The notes under the pieces were generated by a model. It worked only from the letters and a program-made list of their open reading frames with translations, did no database searches and was not told the origin of the DNA. From positions 1 to 20,800 of the IMG/VR virus record IMGVR_UViG_3300037488_001639: a stretch of 20,800 nt of DNA. One strand, 5' to 3'. The translations under genes and the position numbers were made by a program. This stretch comes from a virus. How positions within the stretch are numbered: position 1 is the first letter of the stretch; each line of letters opens with the position of its first letter. Positions 1 through 12,070 of the stretch are shown here, piece by piece.

Positions 1-77
1 TGCTGCGGTGCTGCGGTGCTGCGGTGCTGCGGTGCTGCGGTGCTGCGGTGCTGCGGTGCTGCGGTGCTGCGGTGCTG
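1..77. repeat. Octamer tandem array (CTGCGGTG)n
   Basis: About nine head-to-tail perfect copies of the 8 bp unit CTGCGGTG, cut by the left edge of the window. The unit length is not a multiple of three and the reading frames through it are pure low complexity, so I treat it as non-coding. Confidence 0.95.
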
Positions 78-130
78 GATCGGTTTTGCCCATCAGGGCC
101 CTTTTGCTAGTCCGCCACTTGCGTAACTTC

Positions 131-709: not shown

Positions 710-875
710 TTTTCCCGGTAAGAATGGGGTGGTCTCTATAAACCGCTCGCCAAATCCCTGAATCTTTTGTATTCTTTTACACGCGCGAAAAAAAATAAGG
801 GATATAGGAATAACATATGTCCATTTAGCCATCGGTTTATAAAGCCTACCCCATTTTTACCTTGACTGGGAAAAC
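710..875. repeat. Long imperfect inverted repeat, about 40 bp arms
   Basis: The left arm (710-745) and the reverse complement of the right arm (833-874) match at 32 of 36 positions, with one 6 nt insertion in the right arm (862-867). Conserved blocks are TTTTCCC, GGTAANAATGGGGT and TATAAACCG. The roughly 87 bp between the arms is AT-rich, with an A8 tract near 789-796, and has no gene. This could be a pair of oppositely oriented regulatory elements upstream of the zinc-finger gene, a large cruciform, or remnant ends of an element. Function is inference only. Confidence 0.75.
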
Positions 876-897
876 GCCCCACGTTCTGGTACTCCCC

Positions 898-1293
898 ATG
901 GCGAAGTCGAAAGCTCAATGGCGGTTTGAACAGAAGGCCCTTAACCTTTGCACCCACTGCAATGGTGCCGTGATCCCCGGCCAGACCCTGTGCCCGACCC
1001 ACTCTGCGCGAAGCGCGGAGCGTAGGGAGGCAGCACGGATCAAAAGGGCGGAGATGGTCAGACTGGGGCGGTGCGTCATCTGCGGTCAATGCGCCGTCAA
1101 GGACAGGCTCCACTGCCACCAGCACACCGCTCTTGCACAGGCCAGACTGGAGGCCAAGCTCCTGTGGAGACTACGCCACCATCAGCAAGGGCTCTGCCGA
1201 CTGTGCAGCCAGCCCGCAGCCCCTGATCGCACTCTATGCCTACCACACCTACTCAAGGAACGCCGAGCAAAGGCCATCAAGACCCACATATGA
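898..1293 (+). CDS. Small protein with three tandem CxxC...CxxH zinc-binding repeats
   Basis: The 131-residue product has three copies of C-x2-C-x10-C-x2-H at C18/C21/C32/H35, C59/C62/C73/H76 and C100/C103/C114/H117. The spacing is exactly 41 residues, with Arg/Lys-rich, probably helical linkers between. Each motif should bind one zinc, and the basic linkers suggest nucleic-acid contact; both points are inferred from pattern. I chose the ATG at 898; an upstream TTG at 862 lies inside the inverted-repeat arm. No Shine-Dalgarno is visible. It shares ATGA (1290-1293) with the next gene, which implies translational coupling, so a role in packaging or early regulation is possible. I do not recognise the family. 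Confidence 0.85.
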   Translation: MAKSKAQWRFEQKALNLCTHCNGAVIPGQTLCPTHSARSAERREAARIKRAEMVRLGRCVICGQCAVKDRLHCHQHTALAQARLEAKLLWRLRHHQQGLCRLCSQPAAPDRTLCLPHLLKERRAKAIKTHI

Positions 1294-1796
1294 ACAACTC
1301 GCCCAGAGCGATTGCAGCACGGATCAATGGCCGTAAAGGAGGTAACCCGAACTTGTCAGCCCAAGCATCCGCCACCAAGAGAACCTACCCATTGGATGCC
1401 GTTCTGGACGCATTCACCGAGCGGGCCATTAAAGGGGGTGCGATGCCACGAACCAGCACCCAAATAAAATCCATGACTGAAGATGACCGAAAAATGATTA
1501 ACCGAGTGGTGGGGGTATCTGCCGAGGAGTTCCAATCGCTGTTCTCCGAACGGCTCCGCACACTGGCTGACAAGGCTGTAGACCGGATCGAAGAGAAACT
1601 GGCCGAAGGGGGCCAGAAACTGAGCGACCTTAACATGACACTGGCCATCTCAGTGGACAAGCTGGCAGCCATGAACTCCAAGCCCTCTCAGGGGAACCTC
1701 AGCGTCCAGATCAACAACTATGGCGACATGAGCCGAGACGAACTGCTGTCCTCCTTAAAGGGCGAGAAGAAGGTCATCGACATCGACGTCATCTAG
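1290..1796 (+). CDS. Candidate terminase small subunit
   Basis: The 168-residue product starts at the ATG that overlaps the upstream stop as ATGA. Its N-terminus has a basic RINGRKGGNP stretch of the kind common in phage small terminases and other DNA-binding packaging proteins. The middle (about 60-130) looks helical and heptad-like, and the C-terminus has an INNYGDMSRDELLSSLKG segment. Small terminases recognise phage DNA and form rings that regulate the large subunit. The assignment rests on size, basic N-terminus, helical core and position upstream of terL, although an inverted cassette separates the two. It could instead be an unrelated DNA-binding protein. Its stop codon lies inside a CTAG shared with the convergent gene. 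Confidence 0.8.
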   Translation: MNNSPRAIAARINGRKGGNPNLSAQASATKRTYPLDAVLDAFTERAIKGGAMPRTSTQIKSMTEDDRKMINRVVGVSAEEFQSLFSERLRTLADKAVDRIEEKLAEGGQKLSDLNMTLAISVDKLAAMNSKPSQGNLSVQINNYGDMSRDELLSSLKGEKKVIDIDVI

Positions 1797-2275
1797 AACG
1801 CGGTCTTGGCCCTTGGCAGCTCGACGTACAAGGGGTCCCCCGTGGACTTAAACAGCTTCACGGTCACACGGTCTTGGGTCCGGTAAGGCATGCCACGGAT
1901 CTTCTGCAAAGACACCCTCCGACCGTCATCGAGCTTTATCACGACTAGGTTGTCGTTGGGGCACGGACCCCAGATCTCGGCTTCGCACTCCACAGGCCAG
2001 CCATTGTCCAGCACCGGTTCCTTGACCGCTGCGGCCTCTTCTTTGACCTCGACCACCTCAACCACCTCTCCCTCTCCCTCCAAGGCAGCGAAGAAGGGCT
2101 CGGAGGGGTGATTGTAGATCAAGGCCATTCGAGCATCCTGTAGGTTGAAGCCCCCCTTGGCGGCAATGGCTCGGGCCTTTTTCAGATCCCCCGCCATTAC
2201 GGCGATACGGACAGCGGATTTCCTATTCGCCAAGAGTCTCTTCGCTGCGACCTGTTCGGGAGTGTGTTTAGCCAT
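1793..2275 (-). CDS. Unknown 160-residue protein, last gene of the inverted cassette
   Basis: Not recognised. The N-terminal half (1-60) is Lys/Arg/Ala-rich and probably helical, a central linker (about 65-90) is Glu/Val-rich and acidic, and the C-terminal part (about 95-155) looks beta-rich (VVIKLDDGRRVSLQKI and VTVKLF segments), perhaps a small SH3- or OB-like barrel. It starts 7 bp after the stop of the upstream glycosyltransferase-like gene, so it is most likely co-transcribed with it. It ends on a TAG that overlaps the TAG of the + strand gene within the palindrome CTAG at 1793-1796. No Shine-Dalgarno is visible. Confidence 0.85.
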   Translation of the reverse strand: MAKHTPEQVAAKRLLANRKSAVRIAVMAGDLKKARAIAAKGGFNLQDARMALIYNHPSEPFFAALEGEGEVVEVVEVKEEAAAVKEPVLDNGWPVECEAEIWGPCPNDNLVVIKLDDGRRVSLQKIRGMPYRTQDRVTVKLFKSTGDPLYVELPRAKTAF

Positions 2276-2282
2276 GGTGTTT

Positions 2283-3086
2283 TTAGTAACTGTCGAGACA
2301 GAGCGAGTGAGTCGGGATGGAGGCAGGTGAGTTCAAAGCCTCGGGGGTCACTGGGTACACAACGTCGCCCACATGGCCCACTATCTGACGAGTATCACAC
2401 CACAGTTTCAAGCCAGACTTTCGGGCCAAATGACCGAAGCCGTAGTCCTCACCCAGCATTCGCGCCCCGCTGGCCCCCGTCCCCACCTCAGTCCCATGCA
2501 GAATGTCCTGTACCTCTTGGAACGTACCGGCCAAGGCGATCCGAGCCAGCTTGCCTTCAGGAGTATTGGGGCCGACCAAGCCGATGGGGAACAGCTCGGT
2601 CATGCTCTTGGTTGCCCCGCCCTCATCTTCGTAGTCGAATCGCCGCTCAGGGAAGAAGTCGACCATGTGCTGCAAGGCGGCCACCGAGGTCGACAACATG
2701 CCCGTCCCCACGAAGTCACACTGGAGCATACCGTCCTCACGGACCTCGGCACCGGGGGTCTTCACGATTAGCCATGAGACTGGGCCACTCTTCTTCTTCA
2801 CATAGGGTGCGGCCACGATGTCTTCCTCACGGGACACCAATGCCACCAACTGAGTGGGGTTCCAGAACTGGTCCTTGTCGATCTGGACCAGCTTCCAATA
2901 CCCCTGCTCTATGGCGGACTGGGCCGCGATGTTGCGGGAGATGTTGATGGCAGAGTTGCCCGACTCCATCAGGAACTCGAAATCATACTCCGCATGCTGC
3001 ATGCGGAGGGTCTGGTCATAGGCAGAGAACCAGTAGTAAGGGACTCCGCCCTTGGCGGAGCAGGTGACGAGGACACGTTTTTTCAT
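2283..3086 (-). CDS. Glycosyltransferase-like protein, GT-A type
   Basis: The 267-residue product is likely a cytoplasmic sugar transferase. Residues 4-10 (RVLVTCS) form the first strand, and IDKD at 69-72 sits where GT-A enzymes carry the metal- and nucleotide-sugar-binding DxD motif. A GTGM turn follows at 127-130. Residues 212-240 (GEDYGFGHLARKSGLKLW, then a conserved-looking GHVG) match the usual GT-A ending in which an acidic pair precedes a helix and a His-Gly motif. It overlaps the upstream gene by ATGA (3083-3086), and a GGAGAG lies about 10 nt before its start. Acceptor and sugar are unknown: host surface glycan, virion protein or modified DNA base are all possible. Family placement is from motif pattern, not a search. 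Confidence 0.85.
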   Translation of the reverse strand: MKKRVLVTCSAKGGVPYYWFSAYDQTLRMQHAEYDFEFLMESGNSAINISRNIAAQSAIEQGYWKLVQIDKDQFWNPTQLVALVSREEDIVAAPYVKKKSGPVSWLIVKTPGAEVREDGMLQCDFVGTGMLSTSVAALQHMVDFFPERRFDYEDEGGATKSMTELFPIGLVGPNTPEGKLARIALAGTFQEVQDILHGTEVGTGASGARMLGEDYGFGHLARKSGLKLWCDTRQIVGHVGDVVYPVTPEALNSPASIPTHSLCLDSY

Positions 3087-3370
3087 GCGAAGAGTCTCTC
3101 CGAAGCCCGCAACGCAAAGACCTGCCAGACTCCAGCGTTGCCTTTGAAGTTACCCACATAGCGGGCATTCTCAGGGGTCAGGGCTTGGTCCATGGTCAGC
3201 ATCATAATCTCCACCTTCTCCACCGCCCGCTCCTTGTCCTCCAAGGTCCACAGAAGGCAGTTGTTATGGCGTATGTCCAGATGGACGTCCAGCAGCTTGG
3301 CGTGCTGTGGCAGGTCTACGACCTGACGACCGATGATCGGGAGGGAGCGGGCTTGGATGGTTTGGCTCAT
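3083..3370 (-). CDS. Small DUF7352-like phage protein
   Basis: The 95-residue product has the layout I associate with DUF7352 proteins of phages: a strand near LPIIGRQVVDLPQHAKLLDV, a central LLWTLED strand, then ARYVGNF and a C-terminal VWQVFALR. Function of the family is not known to me. It overlaps both neighbours by ATGA (3083-3086 and 3367-3370), so it is translated as the middle of a tightly coupled three-gene set between the methyltransferase and the glycosyltransferase. No Shine-Dalgarno precedes its start, which fits coupling to the upstream gene. The DUF assignment is a memory-based match and moderate in confidence. Confidence 0.8.
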   Translation of the reverse strand: MSQTIQARSLPIIGRQVVDLPQHAKLLDVHLDIRHNNCLLWTLEDKERAVEKVEIMMLTMDQALTPENARYVGNFKGNAGVWQVFALRASERLFA

Positions 3371-4017
3371 AGAGGTTTGGTCAGCAGACCGAAGGTGTTA
3401 TTGTCGAGACTTTCAAAGCTGCCCCACAGACCCTGCTCGGCGACGAACCGCAACATGGCAGCGTACACGTCAGGATAAGTTGTCAGGTCATCGACCAGCA
3501 TCACACCACCCTTGCGGAGCAAGGGCCAGTAGTCGCAGATGTCCTGATAGGCGGCCCGAAAGGTATGGGAGGCATCGACGTAGATGATGTCCGCCACCAC
3601 CTCCGCAGCCTTCAACAGGATAGCCCCTTCGGCAGAGGTGTTGACGATGGGCACCACCCGGTCTTGCAGGCCACGGGACTTCATGTTCACCAAGAACTGC
3701 CAGTAGGTCATGGGGTGTCCGTTCTGACGGATCACGGTGTAGAGCTTGGCGTTATTCAGGACGGCTTCAGCAGATTCCAACCAAGTGTCCACGCAATACA
3801 ACTTGCCCTCCAGCCCCATCGCCTCGGCCCAACGCACCGCCGAGCCACCCTTGTGGGAACCCACTTCGATCACGACCTTGGCCCCCACCTTGGAGACCAG
3901 TTGATCGAAGACCGGCGAGAGCGCAGAGGGGAAGGTCTGACCGTCGAACGGCAGCCCCAACTCTTCAACGCGCTCGTAGACGGAGGCGTCGGGCAAGATA
4001 GTTTTTACGGAGGACAT
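3367..4017 (-). CDS. SAM-dependent methyltransferase, Methyltransf_24-like
   Basis: The 216-residue class I (Rossmann) methyltransferase shows motif I VVIEVGSHKGGSA at 48-60 (SAM-binding glycine loop), CVDTW at 75-79 (acidic residue that usually binds the SAM ribose), IIYVDASHTFRAAYQDI at 144-160 and LLRKGGVMLVDD at 166-177. The D-A-S-H and G-G-x-x-x-x-D-D pattern is typical of small-molecule or sugar O-methyltransferases rather than DNA methyltransferases, and I see no NPPY or PC motif. Paired with the adjacent glycosyltransferase it may decorate a glycan, which is inference. Its first 53 bp overlap the end of the regulator gene at 3965-4126 in another frame. The next gene overlaps its stop by ATGA. 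Confidence 0.93.
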   Translation of the reverse strand: MSSVKTILPDASVYERVEELGLPFDGQTFPSALSPVFDQLVSKVGAKVVIEVGSHKGGSAVRWAEAMGLEGKLYCVDTWLESAEAVLNNAKLYTVIRQNGHPMTYWQFLVNMKSRGLQDRVVPIVNTSAEGAILLKAAEVVADIIYVDASHTFRAAYQDICDYWPLLRKGGVMLVDDLTTYPDVYAAMLRFVAEQGLWGSFESLDNNTFGLLTKPL

Positions 4018-4126
4018 GATTGACTTCGGCGGGTGCGGAACGGGAGCTTTCTACCATGGCGGCAAGCATCAAAGGCTCTACGTCTTTGGCTATCCTGATC
4101 TGTTTTAGTTTTGGAGTCTTGCCCAT
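3965..4126 (-). CDS. Arc-like ribbon-helix-helix regulator
   Basis: The 53-residue product lines up end to end with the Arc/MetJ-type fold. A strand KLKQIRIAK would sit in the DNA major groove; the first helix VEPLMLAAMVESS follows, then the turn SRSAPAE in place of the common GRS-x-x-x-E, and the second helix AEVNHVLRKNYL. Such proteins dimerise and repress promoters by binding short repeats. I chose the ATG at 4126 because it gives the classic length; an ATG at 4159 would add 11 residues. It heads the inverted cassette and overlaps the methyltransferase start by 53 bp. It is divergent to terL, so it may control the cassette, the packaging genes, or both. It was identified from sequence pattern alone. 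Confidence 0.72.
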   Translation of the reverse strand: MGKTPKLKQIRIAKDVEPLMLAAMVESSRSAPAEVNHVLRKNYLARRLRLRAR

Positions 4127-4177
4127 TACGGATCTTGACAGTGGTGCATTTTGCAACATTGTCAATCAGATATTCAG
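4127..4177. promoter_or_regulatory. Divergent control region with an inverted TTGACA pair
   Basis: This 51 bp lies between the divergent starts of the regulator (-) and terL (+). It contains a perfect -35-like TTGACA at 4135-4140 and its inverse TGTCAA at 4160-4165, 19 bp apart. No good -10 hexamer sits at 16-18 bp from either (best + strand candidate CATTGT at 4157-4162). The pair may be an operator for the ribbon-helix-helix protein rather than two promoters. If the regulator starts at 4159, part of this region is coding. Confidence 0.4.
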
Positions 4178-5860
4178 ATGGCACCCAACATTCATTACGC
4201 CGACAAGTTTCAGCCCCGGTTCGGCGTACCATGGGTCCCCCCGTTAAAGCCCGAGCAACTGGCCACGATGTCCGATGCAGAGCTTAGGCAGTACGCCTCC
4301 CACCGCCACATGGTGGAAACCAAAATGCAGGAGAATCCGGTAGGCTGGGGATGGGCACCACCGGTCTGGGATCAGGTGATGGATAACTTCTGTAAGTACA
4401 ACGTACACATACTCTTGGGCGGGAACCAAAGTTCCAAGACCACGTTCGGCGCACGCATGGCAGTCTGGGCCGCATCGACCATCCCCGAGGCGGAGGTGTA
4501 CGGGTTTCACATCTCTGATCGACGGTCAATCGACGACCAACAACGCTTCGTCTACGAGTCCCTGCCAGAGAACCTTCGCAACCTGTCCACTAAGAAGGGG
4601 ACGTATCACAGTCTTCAATACTCACAGAAGAACGGCTTCACCGACTCCATTGCGATTTTGCCACCGTCCAAGGGCTACCGGAGAGGTGGGTCGATAAAGT
4701 TCTACAACTTCGCCCAGTTCGCCCAGAACAGCCAGATCATCGAAGGCATCAAGGCCCACTTCGTCTGGGCCGATGAGAAGATTCCCTATGACCTGTTTGA
4801 GACTATCCGCATGGGGCGGCTGGGTACTTACCACGGTCGGATGTTGCTGACCTACACTGTCGTCGATGGCTGGAACGAGACCATTGAAAAGATCCTCGCC
4901 AAGACGCGCACCCTCAAGACCCGCTTCTGCAATCACCCCAAGATCATGGCCAACCTGCCGGTCATGCAGGAGAGCCTGTCAGTCGGGTCTTGCTGTATTC
5001 ACTACGCTTGGACAGAGGATAACCCCTTCACCGACGTCACCGAGTTTATGAAACTGTACGGCTCGGAGAGTCGTGAGGTCATTCTCGCTCGCGCCTACGG
5101 CGTACCCACCAAGTCGGTCAGCACTGCGTTCCCCCTCTTCAGCCGGGACGTCAACGTGGTCGCCCATGAGAACCTGCCATGGATGAAGCCCAAGTTTAAC
5201 GCCAAGGGTGGTGAGATCCCCTACCCCATCACTCGCTACATGGCCATCGACTTGGGCGGGTCCAAGAACTGGTGCATGTTGTGGGTGGCCATCGACGTGA
5301 GGGGGACATGGTGGGTCTATCGCGAGTGGCCCGACGTCAGCTACGGAGACTGGGCATTGCCCGGGGACAAGGAGGGTCCGGCTCAGAAGGGGATCGGCTT
5401 GGACATCAAGGGCTACGTCAGCCTCATCAGGGATGCCGAGGGATCGGAGAAGATCTTTGAGAGGTTCATCGACCCACGCATGGGAGCAGCCGAGCGTCAG
5501 ACCATTGATCGTGGGGCGACCACCATCATCTCCGACCTAGACGACTGCGGGATCAGCATGATCCCAGCACCTGCCGCCTCCTCCGAGTCGGACAAGGGTG
5601 AGATCGAGGACGGCATCCAGCTCATCACCAACCTGCTGGCCTACGACACCAAGAAGCCCATCGACAGTCTCAACTCTCCGCACCTCTATGTGTCGGACCG
5701 CTGCGAGAACTTTATCTACGCCATGCAGGAGTACACGGGCAAGCTGGGGGGCAAGGAGCACACCAAGGATTTCATCGACTGTCTGCGCTATCTGCGGAAG
5801 GGGGGCTGCGAGTATGTCTCACCGGTCACCGAGGACCGCAACCGGACGGGAGTTTATTGA
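4178..5860 (+). CDS. terL: Terminase large subunit
   Basis: The 560-residue packaging motor ATPase and nuclease translocates DNA through the portal and cuts it. Walker A is GGNQSSKTT at 81-89 and Walker B is AHFVWADE at 193-200 with the catalytic Asp-Glu pair; LLTYTVVDG at 223-231 fits the coupling motif. The RNase H-like nuclease shows RYMAIDLGGS (Asp358), RFIDPRMGA (Asp432) and KDFIDCLRYL (Asp531/Asp534), so all three acidic positions are present. I chose the ATG at 4178; a TTG at 4151 would add nine residues, and neither has a Shine-Dalgarno. It is followed 42 bp later by the portal gene, the usual order. Confidence 0.95.
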   Translation: MAPNIHYADKFQPRFGVPWVPPLKPEQLATMSDAELRQYASHRHMVETKMQENPVGWGWAPPVWDQVMDNFCKYNVHILLGGNQSSKTTFGARMAVWAASTIPEAEVYGFHISDRRSIDDQQRFVYESLPENLRNLSTKKGTYHSLQYSQKNGFTDSIAILPPSKGYRRGGSIKFYNFAQFAQNSQIIEGIKAHFVWADEKIPYDLFETIRMGRLGTYHGRMLLTYTVVDGWNETIEKILAKTRTLKTRFCNHPKIMANLPVMQESLSVGSCCIHYAWTEDNPFTDVTEFMKLYGSESREVILARAYGVPTKSVSTAFPLFSRDVNVVAHENLPWMKPKFNAKGGEIPYPITRYMAIDLGGSKNWCMLWVAIDVRGTWWVYREWPDVSYGDWALPGDKEGPAQKGIGLDIKGYVSLIRDAEGSEKIFERFIDPRMGAAERQTIDRGATTIISDLDDCGISMIPAPAASSESDKGEIEDGIQLITNLLAYDTKKPIDSLNSPHLYVSDRCENFIYAMQEYTGKLGGKEHTKDFIDCLRYLRKGGCEYVSPVTEDRNRTGVY

Positions 5861-5902
5861 TCTTGCTTTTTGCGAGATCCGCAACCTACCTGCTAAAAAC
5901 GC

Positions 5903-8020
5903 ATGAGTTCATTTTCGGGCACCACAAATGGTCAGGCCGATGCCGGTCTGCAACTCGCCCCCGTCGGTAACGACGGGCCGGACCATGCCCTACTGTCTAA
6001 GACCTTCAGCAACACACTGGCCAACCTCCAAGGTTTCTTCGACCAGTGTGAGGAGAATTTCAATACGCGCTACGCATTGTGGTCAGGTCAAAGTGCCGAC
6101 GGTAAGAAGCACGCCCGTGAGGGGGCCAAGATCGACCCCACCCCATGGGACGGAGCTTCCGACCTTCAAGTCTTTCTGACTGACGAGGCCATCATCAAGA
6201 AGGTGGCCATGCTGTCCATGGCCTTTCGACGGGCGGGCATCTCGGCCACCCCAGTCGAAGGCAACGACATCAAGCGGGCCAAGACGGTGGCCAACTTCAT
6301 GCGCTGGATGGTCCAGACCCAGATCCCTGAGGTCTCACGCGAGGTCAAGCTGCTGGCCAACTTCATCCAAGAACAGGGTATCGGGGCCATCGGCACATTC
6401 TGGGAGGAGACTCAGGAGAAGATCCTCACCACCGTCACACTGGAGCAGCTTCAGGCCCAGTCCCCCGAGGTCGACCTGACCACCGTCCTCTACTCTACCG
6501 AGGGGGAAGACCAGTTGATTGAGATTTTCGTAGGGTTGTACGAGTGCTCTCGCGCCAAGGCCAAGAAAATGTTGGCGGAGCTTCGCAAGTCGCAGACCAC
6601 CACCGTCCCCACCCTCGGTCGCAAGAAGTCCCGGCCAGTGCTGCGAGCCTTCAACCTCAATCAGAACCTGTTCATCCCTGCCGAGTCCACCGATCCGGAG
6701 AACTGCTCGGCCATGTTCAGGGTGGAGTATTACACCGCTGAACAGCTGCGGGGGTTTGTCAATACCTCCAACTGGGACGAGGCATGGGTCGAGGCCGCGA
6801 TCACCACCTGCCGTGGTCAGCTAATCACCAACACCCAGAACGAGTACAACCAGCCGATGGGTCGCTCGTTCACCTTTCAGAGCAACCAGTTCACCAATCT
6901 CATCGGAGTGGTGTTTGCCTATCAACGGCTGTCCGACGAAGATGGCAATGCCGGTATTTACCTGACCGTCTTCAACCCCAAGATGGGTCCCGATGGGAGC
7001 CATGAGGGCTATGCCAAGACAGGGCTGCTGGGCTACGCCCACGGTCAGTATCCTTTCACTATCTTCCGTCGGGAACACCTGTCTCGCAAGCTGCACGATT
7101 CCCGGGGTATCCCAGAACCGGGCAAGCCGTTGCAGCAGCAGATCAAGGTCCACAAGGATTCGCTGATCGACAACGCCAGCATGCAGATCATGCCTCCCTT
7201 GATGTACCCTCAAGGGCGTCCACCTCTACGGTGGGGTGCAGGGGCACGCATCGCTGAACGTCGGCCCGGGGAGTATCACTTCGGCACCACGCCAGCCTAC
7301 TCACCCAGCACCGAGGCCAGTTACAAGGAGCTGAAGTCCGACTTCAACGGGTACTTGGGCTTTGCCACCAGTTCAAGCGACCCGACCTACACCCCATTGA
7401 TTACGCAGGACGAGGCCGACGAGTTCCTCATCGGGTGGAACAAGGTGTATCTCCAATGCTGGCAGCTCTTCAAGCAGTTTGGCAAAGAGGAGACCTACTA
7501 CCGAGTGGTGGGCCTCAAGCAGGTAGACCCCGTGGAGTTCCGCAAGGGCGAAGAGGACGAGCAGTTCGACTTCGTGCTGCGGTTCTCGGTCGACAGCATG
7601 AGCCCCGACCAGACCTTCGCCAAGCTGGAGCAGATCGCCAAGATCGTGGCCACGGGAGACCGTGAAGGGATGGTCAACTACTCTGAATGGCTCCAAGTCA
7701 TGGTCAACGCCATCGACCCGACCATCGCAGAGATGATCTTGGACCCCAAAGAAGTAGGCCAACAGCGGGCATCGGGCGACATGCAGGAGATGCTGACCAA
7801 GGTGTACTCGGGTATCGACCAAGACTTGACCCCCGGCACTCCTCCAGATCTGGCCCTATCAGTCATCCAGAACTACATCCAAGGAGATCCGACGGTTCAG
7901 GCCAAGATGCAGAACCCGCAAGATCCTTTCGGCAAGCGCATCGAGAAGCTGATGAAGCAGGCAGAGTTTCAAAAAGTCCAACAGAACAACGCCAAGATAG
8001 GGCGCATGGGGGCCGTCTAA
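5903..8020 (+). CDS. Portal protein, P22/SU10-like
   Basis: The 705-residue product would form the dodecameric ring at the capsid vertex through which DNA enters and leaves. N-terminal motifs RYALWSGQSADGKKH (56-70) and PWDGASD (81-87), followed by a strand-helix stretch with DEAI, are typical of the large portals of short-tailed phages. A Gln-rich, probably helical C-terminus (about 655-700, KLMKQAEFQKVQQNNAK) could be a barrel-like extension. Position directly after terL supports the call. No Shine-Dalgarno precedes ATG 5903 (CTAAAAACGC). The stop is one base before the next ATG (TAACATG), implying coupling. Confidence 0.9.
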   Translation: MSSFSGTTNGQADAGLQLAPVGNDGPDHALLSKTFSNTLANLQGFFDQCEENFNTRYALWSGQSADGKKHAREGAKIDPTPWDGASDLQVFLTDEAIIKKVAMLSMAFRRAGISATPVEGNDIKRAKTVANFMRWMVQTQIPEVSREVKLLANFIQEQGIGAIGTFWEETQEKILTTVTLEQLQAQSPEVDLTTVLYSTEGEDQLIEIFVGLYECSRAKAKKMLAELRKSQTTTVPTLGRKKSRPVLRAFNLNQNLFIPAESTDPENCSAMFRVEYYTAEQLRGFVNTSNWDEAWVEAAITTCRGQLITNTQNEYNQPMGRSFTFQSNQFTNLIGVVFAYQRLSDEDGNAGIYLTVFNPKMGPDGSHEGYAKTGLLGYAHGQYPFTIFRREHLSRKLHDSRGIPEPGKPLQQQIKVHKDSLIDNASMQIMPPLMYPQGRPPLRWGAGARIAERRPGEYHFGTTPAYSPSTEASYKELKSDFNGYLGFATSSSDPTYTPLITQDEADEFLIGWNKVYLQCWQLFKQFGKEETYYRVVGLKQVDPVEFRKGEEDEQFDFVLRFSVDSMSPDQTFAKLEQIAKIVATGDREGMVNYSEWLQVMVNAIDPTIAEMILDPKEVGQQRASGDMQEMLTKVYSGIDQDLTPGTPPDLALSVIQNYIQGDPTVQAKMQNPQDPFGKRIEKLMKQAEFQKVQQNNAKIGRMGAV

Positions 8021-8021
8021 C

Positions 8022-8315
8022 ATGCTTATGCAAGACTCGGTCAAGGCTCAGAAGCGATTGCAGAACGCCCTCCTCGGGCTGGCCAAGGATACCCGCTTCA
8101 CGGAGTTCATGGCAGAGGTCCGGTCCATGCGTGAGGCGGCGGTGTCCAACCTTTGCAATGGCAACGTGATCGTCGATGAGCGGGCCACACTGGCCTGCAT
8201 CGGAGAGATCGCCAGCTACGAATCAATCCTATCCCTGTATCAGGAAGCATTGAATCGTGCGGCTGAAGAAGTGGCCATGCGCGAGCTGAAACGCTCCATC
8301 GAAGCGGCTTTGTAA
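8022..8315 (+). CDS. Unknown 97-residue helical protein with a capsid-derived tail
   Basis: Not recognised. The protein is almost all helix by composition (KAQKRLQNALLGLAKD, FMAEVRSMREAAVSNL, ESILSLYQEALNRAAEEV) and sits between portal and scaffold, where small head-assembly or portal-associated proteins are often found. Its last residues, AMRELKRSIEAA at 85-96, are identical in protein and almost identical in DNA to residues 115-126 of the major capsid protein. The shared block is a conserved segment of that capsid family, so I infer that the end of this gene was overwritten or extended from the capsid gene. It starts one base after the portal stop. Confidence 0.85.
   Translation: MLMQDSVKAQKRLQNALLGLAKDTRFTEFMAEVRSMREAAVSNLCNGNVIVDERATLACIGEIASYESILSLYQEALNRAAEEVAMRELKRSIEAAL
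8273..8309 (+). repeat. Copy 1 of a direct repeat shared with the capsid gene
   Basis: 8273-8305 is identical over 33 bp to 9945-9977. After one mismatch (8306), GCT also matches. Both copies are in the same reading frame and encode AMRELKRSIEAA. This copy is at the very 3' end of the 97-residue gene. Confidence 0.95.
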
Positions 8316-8418
8316 TTTTGTTGTTGACCTGAAACCAGTTTTAGGGCTTGGCTATGGTTCTTGGCACTCCAGCCATGCGTCAGGATGTTAGATAACGTCT
8401 CTTGTTTACGGAAAAAAC

Positions 8419-9597
8419 ATGTCGTCAGAAAATACTCCAGCTTCTTCACCAGCTCCAACAGGTGATGCGCCAAAGTCAGGGTCGGAAAATATCTCTACGG
8501 GTGCGGCAGCGATGATGATGTTGGCCTCGGCCAGCAAGCCATCAACGTCACAGCCATCCCGCAAAGCTTCGGAAGATACTTCCACACAGACCCCAGAAAC
8601 TCCGACAGCGAGGGCCGAGCAGGCTCCCGAATTAACAGCCACCACAGAAGAGGCTCAAGCACCCGAGACGACTGAGGTTGCATCCGAGACCCCCAAAGCG
8701 GAGGCCGATCCCGTTCATTCTCAGACCCATTCGTTCACTCCCGAACAGCAGGAGATATTCAATCGACGACTGCGCAAGGAATTGGCCAAGACCGCTGCGA
8801 TCCAATCGCAAATGGAAGAGACCAAAGCCAAGCTCAGTGAGATGGAGGCCAAGCTTAACAGCCAACAGGTTGCACAGGCCGCACCCCCACCTCCACCAGT
8901 CCCATCGAACGTACCTCTCTCAGGATTCAATGACCAAGCCTCACTGGCTGACCTAAAGAAGACTGCGAAAGATGCCCTCCGCTATGTGGAAGAAGTTCTG
9001 GAAGACCCTTCACGGTGGCATACTAGCACCATAGTCGACCCAGTAACCGGAGATGAGCGCGATGTGACCTACCACAACATAGGGGATGTCTCCTATACCA
9101 AGGCAGATCTCATCAGTCAACGACGCCAAGCCCGGGCAACTTTGGAGGATCACATCCCCAAGAGAGAGCAATTCATTGCCACCCGAGTGGAGTCGACCAG
9201 ACAAGCGCACATTCAGTTCCCCTTCCTAGCGGACCCCAGCTCTCCTGAATACAAGGTAGCCGAAGCAGCCCGGAAAAACCCCGCACTGGCGTCGATCATG
9301 TCGATGCCTCAAGCGGAGTACATTCTCGGGGTACAGATCCGAGGTCTCCGCGCATTGGCGGAGGACGCAGCGGCTGCGGCAGCCAAGACCAAACCGAAAG
9401 CACCGGCCAGCAGACCGGCCAGCGATCAGGTGGTGGTATCCTCTGGTTCGGCCTCAGCAGCTCGGCAACCAGCAGCCAGTGGGGAGCGTGGCAAACTTGC
9501 CGCAGAGATGGCGAAAATGGGCTCTAAGGGTGGGATCAATTCGGCAGACGCGCAAAGCCTCCTTTTACGACACGAACAACTCAGAAAATCCCGATAA
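8419..9597 (+). CDS. Probable scaffolding protein
   Basis: The 392-residue product lies directly upstream of the capsid gene, the usual place of the scaffold that templates capsid assembly and then leaves. Residues 1-105 are Ser/Thr/Pro/Glu-rich and probably disordered. Residues about 108-150 (from FTPEQQEIF to KLNSQQ) look like a coiled coil, followed by a Pro-rich linker and a more ordered middle (about 170-310). The C-terminus is Ala/Lys-rich and ends in a basic helix (LLLRHEQLRKSR), the kind of region that binds capsid protein. Assignment rests on composition and position. A weak GGA lies 7 nt before the start. Confidence 0.8.
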   Translation: MSSENTPASSPAPTGDAPKSGSENISTGAAAMMMLASASKPSTSQPSRKASEDTSTQTPETPTARAEQAPELTATTEEAQAPETTEVASETPKAEADPVHSQTHSFTPEQQEIFNRRLRKELAKTAAIQSQMEETKAKLSEMEAKLNSQQVAQAAPPPPPVPSNVPLSGFNDQASLADLKKTAKDALRYVEEVLEDPSRWHTSTIVDPVTGDERDVTYHNIGDVSYTKADLISQRRQARATLEDHIPKREQFIATRVESTRQAHIQFPFLADPSSPEYKVAEAARKNPALASIMSMPQAEYILGVQIRGLRALAEDAAAAAAKTKPKAPASRPASDQVVVSSGSASAARQPAASGERGKLAAEMAKMGSKGGINSADAQSLLLRHEQLRKSR

Positions 9598-9603
9598 AAC
9601 ATC

Positions 9604-10632
9604 ATGGCTCTAGCAACATCATACAACGTCTCCGGAGATCGCGAAGCTCTCACGAACTTCCTCACCATCCTCGAACCCGAGGATTGCCCAAAGACGTCTT
9701 CGTTCGCGAAGACGACCAAAGTCACCAACACCTTCCAAACGTGGCAGGCCGATACCCTCGCTAATGTTGATTTCGCCGGTGTCTTGGAAGGCCAAGACGT
9801 CAATGCGTTCAACAACGAGGCCGCCAACCGCGCCCGGTTCGGCAACTACATCCAGAAATTCTGGCGTCCTTGGATGGTCTCGGACCTCCAAGAAGCCTCC
9901 GATCCGGCAGGCACCGACGGTGAGGTCGCCAACTCCAAGGTCAAGGCCATGCGCGAGCTGAAACGCTCCATCGAAGCCGCTGTCGGCTCCGACAACGACA
10001 TGCAGGCCGACACCGGCCTCCTGCCCTACAAGACCCGTGGCCTCGGCTGCTGGATCAGCAAGGGGGATGGCACCACTGGGAGTCCGGCTCAGACCGTGAA
10101 CCCAGTCCCCTCGGCATTCCGCACCCCTGCGGGCAACATCAACACCACGGCGACGGGTTCCCTCACGGAGGCTACCTTCAACGGCGTGTTCCGTTCGATC
10201 TTCACCCAAAACGGTGGACGTCGGGCCTACTCGCTGTTCGCTGGTCCATCCCTGATGACCGCCATTAACACGTTCCAACGTGTTGAAGGTGTGGGGGGCA
10301 CGACCAAGACCTATCAGGTCACCCAAGATGCCGCCAGCAATCAGATCGACCTCGATGTCTCGGTGTACAAAGGCTCGTTCCACACGGTGACTGTCATCCC
10401 TGACATGTTCAACGGCCTGTTGGACGGTTCGGCAGTCACGACCACCACGGATCAGCAGATGGCCCGTGGCTACGTCATCGACCCACAGCTGGTCGGCATC
10501 GGCACGATGCTCGGCGTAGACTCGATGGAGTTGGAAAATCAGGGCGGTGGCCGTCGCGGTCTCGTTCAATCGGCTCTCTTGCTGTTGGTCAAGAACCCAC
10601 GCGGTCTCGGCAAATTCGCCGCAACCGTCTAA
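9604..10632 (+). CDS. Major capsid protein, DUF5309/SU10-like
   Basis: The 342-residue product would build the icosahedral or elongated shell. The segment from ANRARFGNYIQKFWRPW through VSDLQEASDPAG, EVANSKVKAMRELKRSIEAA (107-126) and KTRGLGCWI (143-151) matches the pattern I know for the DUF5309 capsid family: arginine-rich segment, V-S-x-x-Q-E-A, an E-L-K-R-x-x-E helix, then G-L-x-x-W-I. Position between scaffold and a small head protein agrees. There is no N-terminal protease-cleaved delta domain and no protease gene in the window. Start ATG 9604 follows the scaffold stop by 6 bp, without a Shine-Dalgarno. Confidence 0.9.
   Translation: MALATSYNVSGDREALTNFLTILEPEDCPKTSSFAKTTKVTNTFQTWQADTLANVDFAGVLEGQDVNAFNNEAANRARFGNYIQKFWRPWMVSDLQEASDPAGTDGEVANSKVKAMRELKRSIEAAVGSDNDMQADTGLLPYKTRGLGCWISKGDGTTGSPAQTVNPVPSAFRTPAGNINTTATGSLTEATFNGVFRSIFTQNGGRRAYSLFAGPSLMTAINTFQRVEGVGGTTKTYQVTQDAASNQIDLDVSVYKGSFHTVTVIPDMFNGLLDGSAVTTTTDQQMARGYVIDPQLVGIGTMLGVDSMELENQGGGRRGLVQSALLLLVKNPRGLGKFAATV
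9945..9981 (+). repeat. Copy 2 (likely donor) of the direct repeat shared with 8273-8309
   Basis: Lies inside the capsid gene where the encoded helix is a conserved family feature, so this is the probable source of the copy 1672 bp upstream. Confidence 0.9.
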
Positions 10633-10643
10633 CCCTTAACATA

Positions 10644-10649
10644 AAGGAG
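10644..10649 (+). promoter_or_regulatory. Strong ribosome binding site of the small head protein
   Basis: AAGGAG, 10 nt before ATG 10660. It is the best Shine-Dalgarno in the window and contrasts with most neighbours, which lack one. This suggests high output of the following gene. Confidence 0.8.
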
Positions 10650-10659
10650 AACCCATACC

Positions 10660-11127
10660 ATGGCTAATACAGCAATCACGATCTCACCCACCCGCGTCAC
10701 CCCACTCTCTGAACAAGAGGTTGCAGCGACCGGCTACAACGCACGCTTCCGCGTGCTCTCGACCGATATCCTCTATGGCACTGGGGCCACCGACACCGTC
10801 ACCATGACGTTGGGCGCGACCCCTGCCAAGTGGTACATCGACAAGGCGGGTGTCAACATCACGACGGCCTTCGCAGGCATCACCGTTGCGAGCATCATCG
10901 TTGGCACCACCTCGTCTACCGCTGCGCTCACCTCGTCGACGTCTATCCTGACGGCGGCGTTTTTGAATCAAGCGGTCGGCGTGCCAGTCCTGACGAACAC
11001 CACGGGTACGGCTGCCGTCAACCTTGTCGCGACCTTCACGGCTGCGGGCACGGGCGGTCCTGCCGCGCTCACGGCGGGTCAGTTGGACATCTACCTGAAC
11101 CTGACCAATACCGCTCTCCTCCCGTAA
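10660..11127 (+). CDS. Small head protein, probable capsid decoration or cement protein
   Basis: The 155-residue Thr/Ala/Val-rich product looks all-beta (NARFRVLSTDILYGTG, DTVTMTLG, AKWYIDKAGVNITT, QLDIYLNLTNTALLP) and has no Cys. It comes directly after the capsid gene, has the strongest ribosome binding site in the window, and is followed 17 bp later by an intrinsic terminator; all three fit an abundant outer capsid component. No named family is recognised from sequence alone, and a fibre-like or head-tail joining role cannot be excluded. Confidence 0.85.
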   Translation: MANTAITISPTRVTPLSEQEVAATGYNARFRVLSTDILYGTGATDTVTMTLGATPAKWYIDKAGVNITTAFAGITVASIIVGTTSSTAALTSSTSILTAAFLNQAVGVPVLTNTTGTAAVNLVATFTAAGTGGPAALTAGQLDIYLNLTNTALLP

Positions 11128-11144
11128 TCGGGAGTTGAGTGTCA

Positions 11145-11180
11145 GGGGCACATGGCCTAGCCATGTGCCCCACCCTTTTT
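11145..11180 (+). terminator. Intrinsic (rho-independent) terminator after the head genes
   Basis: A perfect 11 bp stem, GGGGCACATGG (11145-11155) paired with CCATGTGCCCC (11161-11171), has a 5 nt loop CCTAG and is followed by ACCC and a run of five Ts ending at 11180. It should stop most transcripts after the head genes. The T-run abuts the next start codon. Confidence 0.9.
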
Positions 11181-11546
11181 ATGTCTTACGAAGCCACCGG
11201 AAGTGGAGACCTTATCACTGGCCTCCCTCAATCATTCTTAGATGAATTTGAAGCCGAGATCCGGGGGCGTGTGCCTGCGGAGAAGGTCGCTGCCCAACTG
11301 CGGCAGGAAAAACTGGCACGGGTGATGAGGCAAGTGGGCTCGACGCAGATCGACACCCTTGGCCAAAAGATCACCAGCATGGACCCTCGCCTGTACTTCC
11401 GCTGCTTCGCCGAGCGAGGCCATGAGGAGAACTGGATCGACGACCTCCTCAAAGATAACCCTGAACTTTGCGCCCCGGGCTATCGCCCCCGTCGCAAAGG
11501 CGATTTCCGCCACGGCAAGACGTTCATCAACGGCAAACCTGTCTAA
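11181..11546 (+). CDS. Conserved-looking neck-region protein of unknown function
   Basis: The 121-residue product has a charged helical N-terminal half (FLDEFEAEIRGRVPAEKVAA, RQEKLARVMRQV) and a second half with DTLGQKITSMDPRLYFRCF, DDLLKDNPEL and a basic C-terminus (PGYRPRRKGDFRHG). The G-Q-x-x-x-x-x-D-x-x-x-Y-F and D-N-P pattern resembles small proteins found near the adaptor gene in other short-tailed phages, but I cannot name a function. I chose ATG 11181; an in-frame ATG at 11163 and a GTG at 11139 lie in or before the terminator stem. The start follows the terminator T-run with no gap, so expression must rely on read-through or an unseen promoter. Confidence 0.82.
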   Translation: MSYEATGSGDLITGLPQSFLDEFEAEIRGRVPAEKVAAQLRQEKLARVMRQVGSTQIDTLGQKITSMDPRLYFRCFAERGHEENWIDDLLKDNPELCAPGYRPRRKGDFRHGKTFINGKPV

Positions 11547-11551
11547 CTATC

Positions 11552-12070
11552 ATGGACAAAAAATCTAGAAAATGCAACTGCGGAGGGGTCCCCGGAGACT
11601 GCTCTTGCGAAGACAAGGTACCTGTGACGGTGATCGCCATCGGCAAACGCAAGAATCCCGACCTTGATGAGGGCGAGGAGCTTCCCCCTGAAGACGGCAT
11701 ACCCATGACGAAGTTCACGGTCATCGGCAAACGCAAGAATCCCGACCTCGATGAGGGCGAGGAGCTTCCCTCCGAAGACGACATCCCGGTTACGAAAGTC
11801 ACGGTCACCGGCAAACGTGGGGACGCATCTAGCATTGAGAGCGGCATGGGGCATTTGAAATACCTGCGCGATCAGTTGGCTGAAGAGACCGACGAGGAGG
11901 AGATCGCCAACATTAAAAATGACATCAAAGAATGGTCTTCCATCATGTTGGAGAAGCACAAATCCAAGTCCGCTACGGAAGAGGGAGAGGGAGAGGGAGA
12001 GAAAAAGAAAAAGAAGGTCGTCTCGCTGATGGACCTGTTCAATCCCTCACGCCCCATGGGAATGAGGTAA
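11552..12070 (+). CDS. Unknown acidic/basic protein with a 28-residue tandem repeat
   Basis: The 172-residue product starts at ATG 11552, five bases after the previous stop. Residues 8-19 (CNCGGVPGDCSC) hold four closely spaced cysteines that could bind a metal. Then come two full copies and a stub of a 28-residue repeat with core IGKRKNPDLDEGEELP. After that there is a helical stretch (KYLRDQLAEETDEEEIANIKNDI) and a C-terminus with EGEGEGEKKKKK and a final LFNPSRPMGMR, possibly a docking peptide. No family is recognised. Position between neck protein and adaptor suggests a virion or assembly role, perhaps an ejected or disordered linker protein. Confidence 0.8.
   Translation: MDKKSRKCNCGGVPGDCSCEDKVPVTVIAIGKRKNPDLDEGEELPPEDGIPMTKFTVIGKRKNPDLDEGEELPSEDDIPVTKVTVTGKRGDASSIESGMGHLKYLRDQLAEETDEEEIANIKNDIKEWSSIMLEKHKSKSATEEGEGEGEKKKKKVVSLMDLFNPSRPMGMR
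11630..11818 (+). repeat. 84 bp in-frame tandem repeat, about 2.25 copies
   Basis: Unit 1 is 11630-11713, unit 2 is 11714-11797, and a partial third is 11798-11818. GGCAAACGC recurs at 84 bp spacing, and the third copy changes to GGCAAACGT. The repeat encodes 28 residues and keeps frame. Confidence 0.9.

Follow-up and report, generated by a model that had tools for sequence, protein, structure and literature searches.

A probable templated insertion of capsid-gene sequence near the 3' end of a small head-cluster gene in a tailed phage

The SU10 capsid has spine helices and follows the HK97 fold (PMC9509320), and SU10-type major capsid proteins (Pfam PF17236; PDB 7z45, 9ny2) are the closest known counterparts of one of the two genes dealt with here. 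Microhomology-assisted template switching is a class of mutation known in other organisms, where it comprises FoSTeS/MMBIR-type and short-range template-switch mutations (PMC7954356, PMC8421209). In phages, low-homology joins are a feature of mosaicism generated by illegitimate or homeologous recombination (PMC2327257, lambda Red). The locus analysed in this work lies in a 20.8-kb tailed-phage virus record, whose whole stretch of DNA is called the window below. It carries a segment of its own SU10-type capsid gene inside a small gene located upstream. The donor gene is a member of the SU10-type group, whereas the recipient codes no capsid protein and has merely 12 residues in common with it. 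The event resembles FoSTeS/MMBIR-type mutations in that a short insert comes from another site while its flanks are kept exactly, in the near-homology found at a breakpoint and, possibly, in the presence of one non-templated base. Those studies concern ape or cancer genomes, whereas the present case is a single event in a phage, on the same strand and over a distance of 1.67 kb. The likeness to phage mosaicism is limited to low-homology joins inside a phage genome: mosaicism exchanges genes between phages, whereas the locus displays an internal 33-bp copy with no exchange. No account of a comparable templated insertion in a phage was found in the literature searched.

Organization of the head gene cluster

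The genes and segments relevant to this analysis are the following (window positions):

4151-5860, terminase gene
5903-8020, portal-like protein gene
8022-8315 (+), small gene, an ORF between the portal-like and scaffold-like genes, coding 97 aa (ancestrally 86 aa) with a predicted all-helical product
8272-8304 (+), 33-bp templated insertion TGGCCATGCGCGAGCTGAAACGCTCCATCGAAG in the small gene, made of T plus 32 capsid-identical nucleotides, absent from all close relatives
8273-8305 (+), the 33-bp exact repeat as it stands in the recipient (36/37 identical on to 8309)
8301-8309 (+), zone of the right breakpoint, GAAGCGGCT, in which the donor (GAAGCCGCT) matches the recipient (GAAGCGGCT) at 8/9 bases
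8419-9597 (+), scaffold-like gene, an ORF of 392 aa between the two repeat copies, its role suggested solely by position
9604-10632 (+), major capsid protein gene, 342 aa, SU10_MCP family (Pfam and PHROG matches), the donor
9945-9977 (+), donor copy in the capsid gene, encoding AMRELKRSIEAA and aligned to the SU10 major head protein 7z45

The donor capsid protein matches the full-domain profile of Pfam PF17236 (E=1e-39, residues 7-338) and PHROG 1328 major head protein (E=3e-41). Its relatives in known phage records are at most 41% identical, and no capsid relative was found in the genome collection. The capsid segment at window 10048-10085 (around residues 149-160) differs in length among near relatives. 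The position of the scaffold-like gene between the small gene and the capsid gene is kept in relatives. The 103-bp intergenic region separating the small and scaffold-like genes (8316-8418) has an identity of 0.94 to the ~11% diverged relatives, against 0.87-0.92 in the flanking genes, which suggests a promoter or other regulatory element.

One relative has an insert of ~0.9 kb (L045:4356-5219, +) between the portal-like and small genes, at the equivalent of window 8013-8031 and thus directly upstream of the gene that bears the capsid copy in the window. It holds a 288-aa ORF with an HNH-like stretch (WHVDHLVPCSSFD...NLRPLWAKDN) and no confident Pfam match. A methyltransferase-like gene (window 3370-4017, -; Methyltransf_24, E=2.8e-18) is missing as a block from a near relative, L041, whose sequence joins window 3374 to 3996. 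Three short tandem arrays are found by the contig start (window 1-90, 134-231 and 554-656), with units TGCTGCGG (8 bp), CCGACCG (7 bp) and GCCAGATA (8 bp). An in-frame 84-bp tandem duplication, 88% identical, lies at window 11638-11805 in the gene of a small acidic protein.

The terminase of close relatives is interrupted by an intein at its Walker A motif (GGNQ/C...HHN/SSKT; Pfam Intein_splicing, E=1.8e-5), for which the window has the empty allele at about 4430. Nested antisense in this intein is a 210-aa HNH_3 endonuclease ORF (E=3.6e-10), represented by the feature

L046:1774-2406 (-), antisense endonuclease ORF inside the terminase ORF L046:1332-3935 (+); also in L136-L157

The antisense arrangement within a terminase-like open frame with intein ends occurs at 22/22 IMG/VR loci having relatives of the endonuclease (48-100% identity). 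In the terminase inteins of cyanophage Mic1 the endonuclease domain is part of the intein itself (PMC7156551). No description of an antisense endonuclease within a terminase intein was found in the open-access literature searched, and this lead may be more interesting than the capsid-copy finding.

The repeat, the inserted block and its origin

A repeat search aligned positions 8273-8309 with 9945-9981 at 36/37 identical bases, the first 33 of which (8273-8305 and 9945-9977) match exactly. This is the longest exact repeat within 861-11600; when sequence of equal length was simulated 200 times with a second-order Markov model, the longest exact repeat averaged 13.2 bp and never exceeded 17. Position 8273 is a third codon position of the gene that begins at 8022, as is 9945 of the gene that begins at 9604, and both copies encode AMRELKRSIEAA. 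The exact in-frame repeat yielding one peptide in two proteins, which an earlier note on this DNA had reported, is confirmed at 33/33 bases and in the same codon phase. The placement of the copy at the C-terminus given there is right as to its near-end position and wrong as to the very end, since the block precedes the native last codons GCG GCT TTG TAA. The additional sequence is thus inserted, not appended, ahead of the last native residues AAL, three codons before the stop.

The ancestral state of the small gene is readable from its relatives. A search of IMG/VR with the 97-aa protein returned nine loci, in 9/9 of which the protein has 86 aa and the 33 bp of 8272-8304 are cleanly missing, with matching flanks on either side and a matching intergenic region beyond. 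The recipient site reads there GCTGAAGAAG immediately followed by CGGCTTTGTAA, or a diverged equivalent, running straight into CGGC.. or CAGC... Note that the boundaries of the insertion are set by these relatives without the block and differ slightly from those of the repeat. Against every near-relative contig covering the site, no gap-type insertion in the core region is larger than this block. The insert is thus identical to a second site in its own genome, and the ancestor lacked it.

On the donor side, every relative covering this part of the capsid gene has the segment, several close ones being unchanged over the 33 bp, and capsid relatives bear out the helix conservation that had been claimed for this family. 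The alignment of the donated segment with 7z45, the major head protein of SU10, falls in the helix region and extends to chain residue 132; together with the HK97 fold of SU10, it suggests that AMRELKRSIEAA is part of a spine helix. A capsid structure predicted from the alignment (pLDDT 39) is too poor for placing the helix or modelling a complex.

In a tree of the small and scaffold genes from which the insertion was excluded, the window nests inside an insert-free clade. It is 4-5% distant from its nearest relatives, with insert-free outgroups at about 11% (L009, L043). The clade uniting the window with insert-free near relatives, which excludes the insert-free 3300020042 contig, has a UFBoot value of 82, inner nodes ranging from 42 to 97. 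Insert-free relatives, a conserved donor and the nested position of the window together indicate that the copy went from the capsid gene to the small gene, in the window lineage alone. The derived status proposed earlier for the copy in the 97-residue protein is therefore supported, as is a recombination or copying event behind it. When this protein is aligned with its homologues, as had been advised, none rather than all of them carries the tail. The event looks fairly recent; the identity of the two copies dates it poorly because near relatives at 4-5% overall divergence have the very same donor 33-mer.

Breakpoints and mode of copying

The window reads GCTGAAGAAG T GGCCATGCGCGAGCTGAAACGCTCCATCGAAG CGGCTTTGTAA across the insertion, and the donor reads AAGGTCAAGGCCATGCGCGAGCTGAAACGCTCCATCGAAGCCGCTGTC. 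At the right breakpoint, donor and recipient share GAAGC exactly and agree at 8/9 bases overall (GAAGCsGCT), an agreement whose frequency is 2.2e-4 for a random pair of places. The left breakpoint is either blunt with a non-templated T or has a GGC microhomology if one C>T change is assumed. This junction lacks a clean microhomology, which counts against a template-switch account. Even so, the locus is most probably explained by a one-off, fairly recent insertion through a microhomology-assisted template switch. While phage DNA was being replicated or repaired, a stretch of ~32 bp from the capsid gene, corresponding to part of the conserved long helix, would have been copied to the small gene, which lies ~1.7 kb upstream; the 3' end of that gene would thereby have gained 33 bp, in frame and ahead of the native stop. 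We infer a polymerase template switch rather than, for example, annealing of a short single-stranded fragment.

The frequency of such events was surveyed in 116 related contigs (1676 alignments) by collecting insertion alleles of 15-200 bp. Among the 78 alleles obtained, only the capsid-to-small-gene event is clearly templated, with a 33-bp match in its own contig; it is counted twice in the survey, one relative aligning it as 30 bp. The next-best own-contig match is a 15-bp simple GA-rich sequence and the rest reach 12 bp or less. Templated insertion is a rare one-off and not a habit of this phage group, and a single clear case in 78 alleles does not point to a general mechanism.

The evidence for the insertion comes from one metagenomic contig. 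Neither of its junction sequences was found in any other IMG/VR contig, and relatives show no comparable event. These observations speak for a 33-bp copy made in PCR, whole-genome amplification or assembly and absent from the phage. Such an origin in the library or assembly is nevertheless unlikely. It would take a pair of chimeric joins leading back precisely into the recipient with the reading frame kept, and the sequence common at these joins amounts at most to 5 exact or 9 near-identical bases, far below assembler k-mers. Simple repeat collapse, for its part, would drop a copy and not add one.

The small protein and the meaning of its extension

The small protein has no significant match in Pfam or PHROGs, and a profile search of the PDB was also empty. 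Foldseek with the 97-aa model returned nothing with an E as low as 0.2 from the PDB and viral libraries, and no relatives were found in known phage records. Fifty relatives were collected elsewhere. The AlphaFold2 model (51 sequences) is all-helical with a pLDDT of 93, its last helix running as one continuous element from 53 to 96 (pLDDT about 93), so that the added residues are predicted to continue the pre-existing C-terminal helix by about three turns. Lengths in the family range from about 83 to 109 aa and vary mostly at the C-terminal end, several distant groups being longer-tailed, and a C-terminal extension is therefore plausibly tolerated. The effect of the insertion would then be near-neutral, with a last helix longer by 11 residues.

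The earlier note had proposed that the tail is a molecular mimic which lets the small protein bind the capsid or scaffold. The insertion is indeed in frame, carries the exactly conserved helix peptide AMRELKRSIEAA, ends up on a confidently predicted helix and affects a gene of the head-assembly cluster. Selection for binding is nonetheless very unlikely as its explanation. The tail is kept by no relative, hence there is no sign of selection on it; a third of random insertions would be in frame, and here the stop follows after 3 codons; and the added helix merely continues one that was already there. The mimicry claim thus finds no support, and the insertion is probably a harmless copying error and not a functional mimic. 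The same note pointed to loss of the scaffold gene by recombination between the copies. This deletion is formally possible; its product would be 312 aa long, with the small protein joined to capsid residues 115-342, and the scaffold-like gene and capsid residues 1-114 would be gone. Such a headless capsid fusion is presumably inviable and would be lost. That the block is instead an ancestral element deleted by all relatives, a logical possibility and nothing more, is extremely improbable, as both the near clade and the ~11% diverged outgroups lack it at the identical site and several parallel exact 33-bp deletions would be required.

There is a slight chance that the captured capsid helix constitutes a putative new capsid- or scaffold-binding face on a small head-cluster protein; if true, templated insertion would here have given rise to an interaction in a phage, in a manner akin to exon shuffling. 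On its own, the insertion leaves the understanding of phage assembly unaltered. As a probable template-switch product, it offers a clean natural case of a phage gene gaining a piece of another gene by a copying error, in which source, direction, boundaries and ancestral state are all readable, and it illustrates the way in which mistakes of this kind lengthen proteins. That 78 insertion alleles include a single clearly templated one is also informative as to how frequently proteins change in this way.
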